64,000 nucleotides of DNA, taken from contig NC_020388.1 of assembly GCF_000591055.1 (NCBI RefSeq), positions 2,294,001 to 2,358,000 on the forward strand, in the 5' to 3' direction. The stretch comes from Natronomonas moolapensis 8.8.11. GTDB lineage: Archaea > Halobacteriota > Halobacteria > Halobacteriales > Haloarculaceae. Numbering within the stretch: the stretch's first letter is position 1; the number at the start of each line of letters is the position of its first letter. Positions 31,932 through 59,854 of the stretch are shown piece by piece. A program made the translations under genes and the position numbers. The notes beneath the pieces are model-generated. The model made no database searches. It was not told where the DNA came from and was given only the letters and a program-made list of their open reading frames with translations.

Positions 31932-32501
<570 letters not shown>

Positions 32502-57310: not shown

Positions 57311-57460
57311 AATTCCTGTTCGCGAATCCACAGACATCGCTGGTTTCGAGCGACGGCCCGACCGACCGCCGGTCCAAACGCCGCCGTTCGTCCGTCGTCG
57401 GCTCAGAGCGACTCCCGCAATCGAAAGGGTTTATCAGTAGCCGCAATAAGAAGAGTTTGA

Positions 57461-57512
<52 letters not shown>

Positions 57513-57534
<22 letters not shown>

Positions 57535-58146
57535 TATTCCGTTTCGAACACCACCGAGCAGTGCCGAGCGTCAGCGAGGCCTGCTCGCCACGACGTGAGA
57601 AACGGTGCGGCCGGGGAGTTGATCCCTGGGCGTCGCGCGCAGCGAAGCGAGCACGTCTACCTCCGGTTCAACTCCCTCTCGGCCCGTATTCCGTTTCGAA
57701 CACCACCGAGCAGTGCCGAGCGTCAGCGAGGCCTGCTCGCCACGACGTGAGAAACGATGCGGCTGGGGAGTTGATCCCTGGGCGTCGCGCGCAGCGAAGC
57801 GAGCACGTCGGCCTCCGGTTCAACTCCCTCTCGGCCCGTATTCCGTTTCGAACACCACCGAGCAGTGCCGAGCGTCAGCGAGGCCTGCTCGCCACGACGT
57901 GAGAAACGATGCGGCTGGGGAGTTGATCCCTGGGCGTCGCGCGCAGCGAAGCGAGCACGTCGGCCTCCGGTTCAACTCCCTCTCGGCCCGTATTCCGTTT
58001 CGAACACCACCGAGCAGTGCCGAGCGTCAGCGAGGCCTGCTCGCCACGACGTGAGAAACGATGCGGCCGGGGAGTTTCACCCTGGAAGACGCAGCGCGAA
58101 CGGGGTGAGCGACCGTCTGCCTCCGGTTCAACTCCCTCTCGGCCCG
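57513..58146 (+). repeat. tandem array repeating the 3' end of tRNA-Lys
   Basis: The final 22 nt of tRNA-Lys (57513-57534) recur exactly at 57665-57686, 57817-57838, 57969-57990 and 58125-58146. Units are 152, 152, 152 and 156 bp. Units 2 and 3 are identical where compared; unit 1 differs at a few bases near its end; unit 4 diverges in its last ~55 bp (GAGTTTCACCCTGGAAGACG instead of GAGTTGATCCCTGGGCGTCG). No unit contains a whole tRNA. No integrase gene is near. Candidate explanations are an att-site array from repeated integration, or tandem amplification of a tRNA-derived unit. Confidence 0.9.
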
Positions 58147-59141: not shown

Positions 59142-59300
59142 TAAATAGTGTATTTAAATGGTGTTTTTCTGGCGGAGTCTGGCTTCGTGATGGGCTGGTT
59201 TAGATGGTGTATTTAAATGGTGCTTTCCGGTGAACTCCGGTTTTGTGATGTCTGGCTTCGTGACGGCTGGTTTCGGCGGTGTATTTAAATAGTGTTTTTC
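59142..59300. repeat. A+T-rich imperfect repeats with ATTTAAAT palindromes
   Basis: ATTTAAAT occurs four times, three within GTGTATTTAAATRGTG (59148, 59207 and 59279), spaced 59 and 72 bp. Between them are variants of TCTGGCTTCGTGATGGCTGG. The A+T-rich palindromes contrast with the surrounding G+C-rich DNA. They could be stacked TATA-like sites, a binding-site array, or decayed tandem repeats; no reading frame is supported. Confidence 0.6.
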
Positions 59301-59348
59301 AGTGAGGTCCGGTTCCGTCCCGACCTCGGTGAACTAGACTACCGAGTC

Positions 59349-59582
59349 ACCGCACACCGCCCCGCAACCGCACACCGCCCCGCAACCGCACACCGCCCCG
59401 CAACCGCACACCGCCCCGCAACCGCACACCGCCCCGCAACCACACACCGCCCCGCAACCGCACACCGCCCCGCAACCGCACACCGCCCCGCAACCGCACA
59501 CCGCCCCGCAACCGCACACCGCCCCGCAACCGCACACCGCCCCGCAACCGCACACCGCCCCGCAACCGCACACCGCCCCGCA
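59349..59582. repeat. 18-bp minisatellite, 13 copies
   Basis: Thirteen head-to-tail copies of ACCGCACACCGCCCCGCA, one of them (copy 6) with a G-to-A change. Open frames run through it on both strands (TAHRPA repeats on plus, AVCGCG-type repeats on minus), but neither has a credible start, promoter or flanking coding sequence, so I treat it as non-coding. A perfect hairpin GATAGAGC-ga-GCTCTATC follows at about 59621-59638. The remaining interval to 59854 has no supported gene. Confidence 0.85.
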
Positions 59583-59854
59583 GCCGATTCGTTCGGCGCT
59601 TCGCGCCTCACTCATCCGCCGATAGAGCGAGCTCTATCGAGCCGTCGCTCACTCCGTTCGCGAAGCCCTCGCACGTATGTTTCGCGCCGGCCCTCGGACG
59701 GGGCGGCTCGCTCGCGTTCGCCGCCCGCCTCGGGCACGGCGCAGCGCGCGCCACCGCACAGCAGCGATGTGAGTATATATGTGTGTGCGATCGGGTCGCG
59801 GCGGGTGGCGGCCGACCGCGACAGTTTTTATTCGTCCGACACCAACGGTCGGAT

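Follow-up and report, generated by a model that had tools for sequence, protein, structure and literature searches.

The window, that is, the whole 64,000-nt stretch of Natronomonas moolapensis 8.8.11 analysed here (contig NC_020388.1), contains a tRNA-Lys(UUU) gene whose last 22 nt, GGTTCAACTCCCTCTCGGCCCG, recur without a mismatch four times downstream of the gene, as revealed by sequence comparison. We refer to the repeated units as cassettes, to the copied tRNA end as the tail and to the arm predicted to pair with it as the antitail. The features of the locus, in window coordinates, are as follows.

57428..57438, plus strand: TATA-like TTTATCA, ~25-31 bp 5' of the tRNA (read directly from the sequence)
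57461..57534, plus strand: tRNA-Lys(UUU), donor of the copied tail (ARAGORN; Rfam RF00005, 70.2 bits)
57513..57534, plus strand: original 22-nt tail, made up of two T-stem bases, the T loop, the 3' T stem, the 3' acceptor strand and the discriminator G
57535..57686, plus strand: cassette 1, 152 bp (TRF, fold)
57539..57605, plus strand: H1 hairpin of cassette 1, recurring at +152, +304 and +456 (fold)
57609..57684, plus strand: H2 hairpin of cassette 1, with the antitail arm GGCCGGGGAGTTGATCC, an inner stem-loop and the copied tail as 3' arm (fold, covariation)
57665..57686, plus strand: tail copy 1 (exact match)
57687..57838, plus strand: cassette 2, 152 bp (TRF)
57817..57838, plus strand: tail copy 2 (exact match)
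57839..57990, plus strand: cassette 3, 152 bp, the same as cassette 2 (sequence comparison)
57969..57990, plus strand: tail copy 3 (exact match)
57991..58146, plus strand: cassette 4, 156 bp, with H1 kept and a different H2 inner module (module swap)
58125..58146, plus strand: tail copy 4 (exact match), with the T-rich CTTTTGTGG directly after it

Four unchanged recurrences of the tRNA-Lys tail, starting at 57665, 57817, 57969 and 58125, had been claimed in the original prediction, and all of them were confirmed as exact matches. A chance origin of these copies is excluded, since zero 20/22-nt matches are expected in such a length. The proposed spacing also held, both from the coordinates (152/152/152/156 bp) and from TRF, which returned a period of 152, 4.1 copies, 95% matches and a score of 1120. 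Comparison of the units likewise bore out the identity of cassettes 2 and 3 and the change near the end of the fourth; cassette 1 shares 97% identity with both of the former, and cassette 4 departs from cassettes 1-3 in its last half. The identity of cassettes 2 and 3 indicates a recent tandem duplication. TTTATCA is the sole promoter candidate that we saw for the array, and CTTTTGTGG is a possible transcript end. Scanning of the window with Rfam retrieved no family except tRNA.

Other origins of such an array were considered and discarded. The N. moolapensis genome was finished by 454 sequencing, cosmid-end Sanger reads and PCR gap closure (PMC3623002), units lie at nine other tRNA loci, and independent species have arrays of their own, with as many as four units, which renders an assembly artefact unlikely. 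CRISPR or other spacer arrays were rejected because the "spacers" are homologous, structured and tRNA-linked. A simple minisatellite with all copies derived from one unit fits cassettes 2 and 3; elsewhere, at Leu and Lys loci, arrays mix unrelated cassettes. The tandem amplification of a tail-plus-spacer unit, one of the two origins put forward at first, stands as a recent duplication for cassettes 2 and 3.

Three further repeats were recorded in the window. An 18-bp tandem repeat (ACCGCACACCGCCCCGCA; 13 copies, 98% matches) occupies positions 59349-59586, just 3' of the next gene, and is adjoined by a 72-bp repeat present twice at 59177-59314, which includes TATTTAAAT. At 32340-32497, a 9-bp repeat (GACGATGAC) in ~18 copies is compatible with an aspartate-rich coding stretch. 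The prophage of strain 8.8.11 has been placed at 1501283-1545787 (PMC3623002), and the tRNA start at 1545788 is the base directly after this published end.

Cassette architecture and the match to the neighbouring tRNA

Cassette 1 folds with a predicted energy of -74.6 kcal/mol (z = -4.55 relative to shuffled sequences) into two consecutive hairpins, H1 and H2. In this predicted fold, H1 corresponds to TCCGTTTC...GAAACGG with an inner arm GAGCAG...CTGCTC, whereas in H2 the tail part GGTTCAACTCCCTCTCGGCC, as the 3' arm, pairs with the antitail arm GGCCGGGGAGTTGATCC around an inner stem-loop. Cassette 4 retains H1 and the antitail principle, and its inner module has been replaced.

A consensus built from 33 cores comprises 19 base pairs, 13 of which show changes on both sides. 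Across 220 distinct sequences, the inner stem is 84-99% Watson-Crick, with GC, CG, AT and TA all present at several positions. In H2, the tail of the cassette's own tRNA and an antitail arm thus pair with each other and enclose an inner stem that covaries. Changes in the antitail amount to 8-10% opposite a tail G or T, which preserve wobble pairing on the tRNA-sense strand, and to 2-3% opposite A or C. This excess points to pairing in the sense RNA and is partly confounded by the clustering of these positions near the helix end. For the inner stem no such excess was found (19 G-T vs 20 A-C), as expected for an inverted repeat at the DNA level, which counts against the RNA reading.

The census of tRNA loci in N. 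moolapensis uncovered tail-bearing units behind 10 of ~40 tRNAs, each unit ending in the tail of its own tRNA and carrying an antitail arm adapted to that tail. Lys-TTT is followed by four units, Leu-TAG by three and Met-CAT by two; single units follow Gly-TCC, Gly-GCC (decayed), Arg-CCT, Val-CAC, Arg-TCT, Arg-GCG and Leu-TAA. The Gly-TCC (L043) and Gly-GCC (L048) units have nearly identical H2 inner modules and different tails, a combination that suggests that modules move, or are converted, from one tRNA locus to another. Downstream of Arg-GCG, Gly-TCC and Arg-CCT (L068, L043 and L047) there are also extra hairpins made of the acceptor end only (~10-15 nt) and its complement, with no T-loop part, possibly a second, shorter kind of tail hairpin.

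We then looked at the same relationship with a covariance model. It gave 163 strong matches at 110 loci. A tRNA precedes 150 of them in the same orientation; for the remaining 13, tRNA calling returned no such gene in the retrieved stretch, some of these matches being close to the ends of their loci. The 150 tRNA-linked cassettes span 27 isoacceptor types. Their tails differ from the own tRNA by 1.5 of 20 positions on average, compared to 6.1 for other tRNAs, and 120 of them are zero or one position off. As a control for circularity, cassettes were located solely by the T-loop motif and the antitail, and the acceptor part was compared afterwards. The comparison with the own tRNA gave 0.54 mismatches of 8, permuted pairings gave 4.11 ± 0.11, and 134/168 acceptor parts were exact copies. 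The acceptor part is unpaired in most hairpins, so hairpin pairing alone is insufficient to produce the own-tail match. The original prediction had named spacers of the same kind without a link to tRNA-Lys as an observation that would speak against it; this turned out half true, since other tRNAs are also followed by related cassettes, and these almost always bear the tail of the tRNA concerned.

Distribution and turnover of the cassettes

R1, the covariance model of the haloarchaeal cassette, matched 69/72 genomes of the haloarchaeal order and 0/224 other genomes of the phylum in a phylum-wide draw. At the family level, 143/146 genomes were positive (95/96 of the good genomes), with up to at least 31 matches per genome. 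Carriers of the exact pattern include Haloarcula, Halorubrum, Haloferax, Halobacterium, Natrinema, Halosimplex, Natronorubrum and Halorientalis; the scan for this pattern also returned three bacterial records (L129, L130, L137), none of which has an R1 match. Every haloarchaeal family sampled thus has cassettes behind many tRNAs, a few genomes excepted, and these data strongly support that the cassettes constitute a structured, order-wide and tRNA-specific family. That 3/72 genomes of the order, and the majority of individual tRNAs, lack them argues against an essential role. The three order genomes without an R1 match (G228, G259 and G377) gave a much lower number of first-look candidates than the other genomes, possibly owing to a different base composition.

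Turnover was followed at tRNA-Leu(TAG) and tRNA-Lys(TTT) in ~30 species each of one haloarchaeal genus (g3). These loci hold from zero to four cassettes, in which several H1 types are joined to several H2 types in many combinations. At the Leu locus, G026 carries two cassettes and G032 one, and G028 carries one and G053 none, with downstream flanks 94-95% identical. Comparison of the Lys locus of G026 and G032 gave 99% identity upstream, 91% downstream and, by global alignment, 69% in the array, each genome having a single cassette of a different module type. The turnover events are delimited by the 3' end of the tRNA and by the point where the last tail stops. Furthermore, the T loop of tRNA-Leu reads TTCGAATCC or TTCAAATCC depending on the species, and nearly all unit tails change accordingly. 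Between genomes, whole cassettes have thus appeared, disappeared, been duplicated or replaced one another, with their H1 and H2 modules in new combinations. Recombination between tail copies, either homologous or driven by an integrase, would be the natural explanation.

The identity of cassettes 2 and 3, the free shuffling of modules and the rapid turnover would also suit palindromic repeats that are neutral or selfish, serve no host function and are spread and homogenised by short-homology recombination, slippage and gene conversion among tail, antitail and tRNA. Decayed units, the inner stem devoid of wobble excess and the deletions mediated by short repeats in Haloquadratum (PMC3119063) go in the same direction. 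We nonetheless regard this account as quite unlikely, given the covariation of the inner stem throughout the order, the persistence of cassettes in almost every genome and the exactness of 134/168 acceptor copies that are unpaired in most hairpins.

tRNA genes such as tRNA-Leu are also entered by integrated elements, which resemble the cassettes in leaving a direct repeat of the tRNA 3' end adjoining the tRNA. Their att copies flank kilobases of DNA with an integrase, whereas haloarchaeal cassettes measure 100-170 bp and have no cargo genes; in the Lys array, units of 152-156 bp leave no room for the integrase of an att-bounded element. G051 and G033 harbor elements of 7-14 kb at tRNA-Leu with a PF00589 integrase, and their far att copies share 52-54 nt with the tRNA, as compared to the 20-24 nt of cassette tails; one element, in G053, has a far copy of 24 nt. 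Integrase-bearing elements or remnants at tRNA-Leu(TAG) were noted at loci L274, L275, L277 and L278; their far att copies range from 24 to 54 nt. The far att copy of G033 is directly followed by an H1-type cassette, which indicates that the element landed between the tRNA and its cassettes. In G028 (L278), a cassette is positioned between the tRNA and an integrase remnant, which leaves two possible histories: a later arrival of the cassette, or use of its tail by the element. Nested att sites left behind by elements with lost cargo, the other origin first put forward for the Lys array, are not supported as such by these data: what lies between the tails is a two-hairpin module that is conserved, covaries and recurs behind 27 tRNA types across the order, and the true elements in two genomes share 52-54 nt.

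A role of integrases in moving the cassettes themselves is a different proposal. Here the tail would be an attachment core, and tyrosine recombinases provided by resident elements would mobilise units of 100-170 bp as mini-cassettes, cutting them out and inserting them at tRNA 3' ends in an integron-like manner, any RNA role being secondary. The precise presence or absence at the tRNA end agrees with it, as does the fact that the tail covers the T-loop/acceptor segment used by archaeal integrases; att sites of only 13 bp are known from haloarchaea (PMC8371274), the tRNA-Leu locus with cassette turnover is also a target of integrase elements, and the G028 cassette sits next to an integrase remnant. 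Yet no recombinase was found within or tied to the cassettes, the integrase elements at two such loci share 52-54 rather than 20-24 nt, and searches of IMG/VR viral contigs with the exact pattern and of a plasmid collection with one cassette as query retrieved no cassette and no match, respectively. Neither does this proposal explain why the antitail tracks the tail, nor why the same design exists in E. coli. We consider it unlikely.

Finally, spare tails could act as decoy attachment sites that divert integrating elements from the tRNA gene. The tail copies are indeed the exact segment that usually serves as attB, and in one case a cassette tail is followed immediately by an integrase remnant. 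The G033 element inserted at the tRNA despite the H1-type cassette just past its far att copy; moreover, the benefit would be weak, because integration leaves tRNAs intact, and the hairpins would go unexplained. This makes decoys a very improbable explanation.

Comparison with RtT of E. coli and possible RNA products

The closest resemblance was found in E. coli. In strain K-12, tyrV is followed by repeats of 178-bp period whose exact 19-nt tails fall at +178, +356 and +534; their antitail arm GGGGAAGGAT pairs with the tail, also in the Rfam RF00391 structure. Units behind the proK, argQ and lys tRNAs each end in an exact 17-nt copy of their own tail; the E. coli sample consisted of chosen tRNA operons, and the argQ unit was located through its tail and not with RF00391. 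Own-tail units of the RtT type (tyr, pro, arg, lys) correspond to loci L281, L285, L286, L289 and L290.

RtT (rttR, the tyrT-tyrV repeats; RF00391) and haloarchaeal cassettes are alike in their position behind a tRNA, in the own-tail copy at the unit end and in the outer stem formed by antitail and tail. They also share internal hairpins with a CGAGCGTCAGCGAG / GAGCGAAGCGAG motif, and both occur in tandem or singly at several tRNAs. On the other hand, E. coli RtT tails contain the encoded CCA whereas haloarchaeal tails end at the discriminator, and in the haloarchaeal units the antitail duplex is longer, an H1 hairpin is present on the side near the tRNA, and at least 27 tRNA types are followed by such units. 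RF00391 did not match the Lys array at E<=1, and in six haloarchaeal genomes its best hit scored 19.8 bits (E 0.28-0.61), below the gathering cut-off of 45 bits; conversely, R1 did not match E. coli RtT. The two models being mutually blind, the haloarchaeal family works like RtT without being a member of it. Our literature search for haloarchaeal tRNA tail repeats and the hairpin motif found nothing relevant, and the family seems to be undescribed and covered by no Rfam family.

In our judgement, a haloarchaeal tRNA-trailer cassette is probably repeated four times in the array; it would be an archaeal counterpart of RtT, yield tail-bearing small RNAs and turn over by tail-to-tail recombination. 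In such a scheme, transcription from the tRNA promoter would read through the array, and tRNA 3' processing at every tail would free small structured RNAs with a tRNA tail end, much as rtT RNA is freed from the tyrT transcript. As the tails are exact direct repeats, recombination between them, homologous or with the help of an integrase, would in turn insert, delete or swap cassettes and hold the tails identical to the tRNA. E. coli RtT is a strong precedent, by analogy, for tail-bearing small RNAs. A passage of PMC4986893 that cites Bosl and Kersten (1991) describes rtT RNA as released from tRNA operon transcripts and as affecting amino-acid starvation responses. By the same analogy, the predicted haloarchaeal RNAs would probably have a regulatory role or buffer tRNA processing or the response to stress. 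T-runs did not differ between tRNAs with and without cassettes, nor after the last tail, and read-through is therefore not supported by the sequence.

Heterogeneous tandem cassettes, inverted-repeat hairpins conserved more in structure than in sequence and precise gain and loss also characterise integron cassette arrays. Those depend on an integron integrase, attI and gene cassettes; none of these was seen with the haloarchaeal cassettes, which are too short for genes. More speculatively, haloarchaea as a whole might possess a tRNA-anchored, integron-like system in which structured cassettes enter, leave and reassort at tRNA tails and are rewritten to match the local tRNA, with RtT as an independent or ancient relative, so that the class would serve or parasitise tRNA 3' ends in two domains; we put this forward as a tentative idea that is rather doubtful at present.

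What was a curiosity of the E. coli tyrT repeat and RtT becomes a pattern common to two domains under one rule, namely the own tail plus the antisense of that tail. An old question is thereby made testable: what tail-bearing trailer RNAs are for, and how a non-coding copy stays identical to the tRNA. As a caution, partial tRNA copies in haloarchaea need not signal integrated viruses.

A further trailer is annotated in the E. coli record, 3'ETS-leuZ, where no tail copy was found, unlike in haloarchaeal cassettes; it resembles them as a small RNA derived from the trailer of a tRNA transcript, and acts as a sponge. The E. coli tyrT units, for their part, are annotated as encoding the protamine-like protein Tpr.
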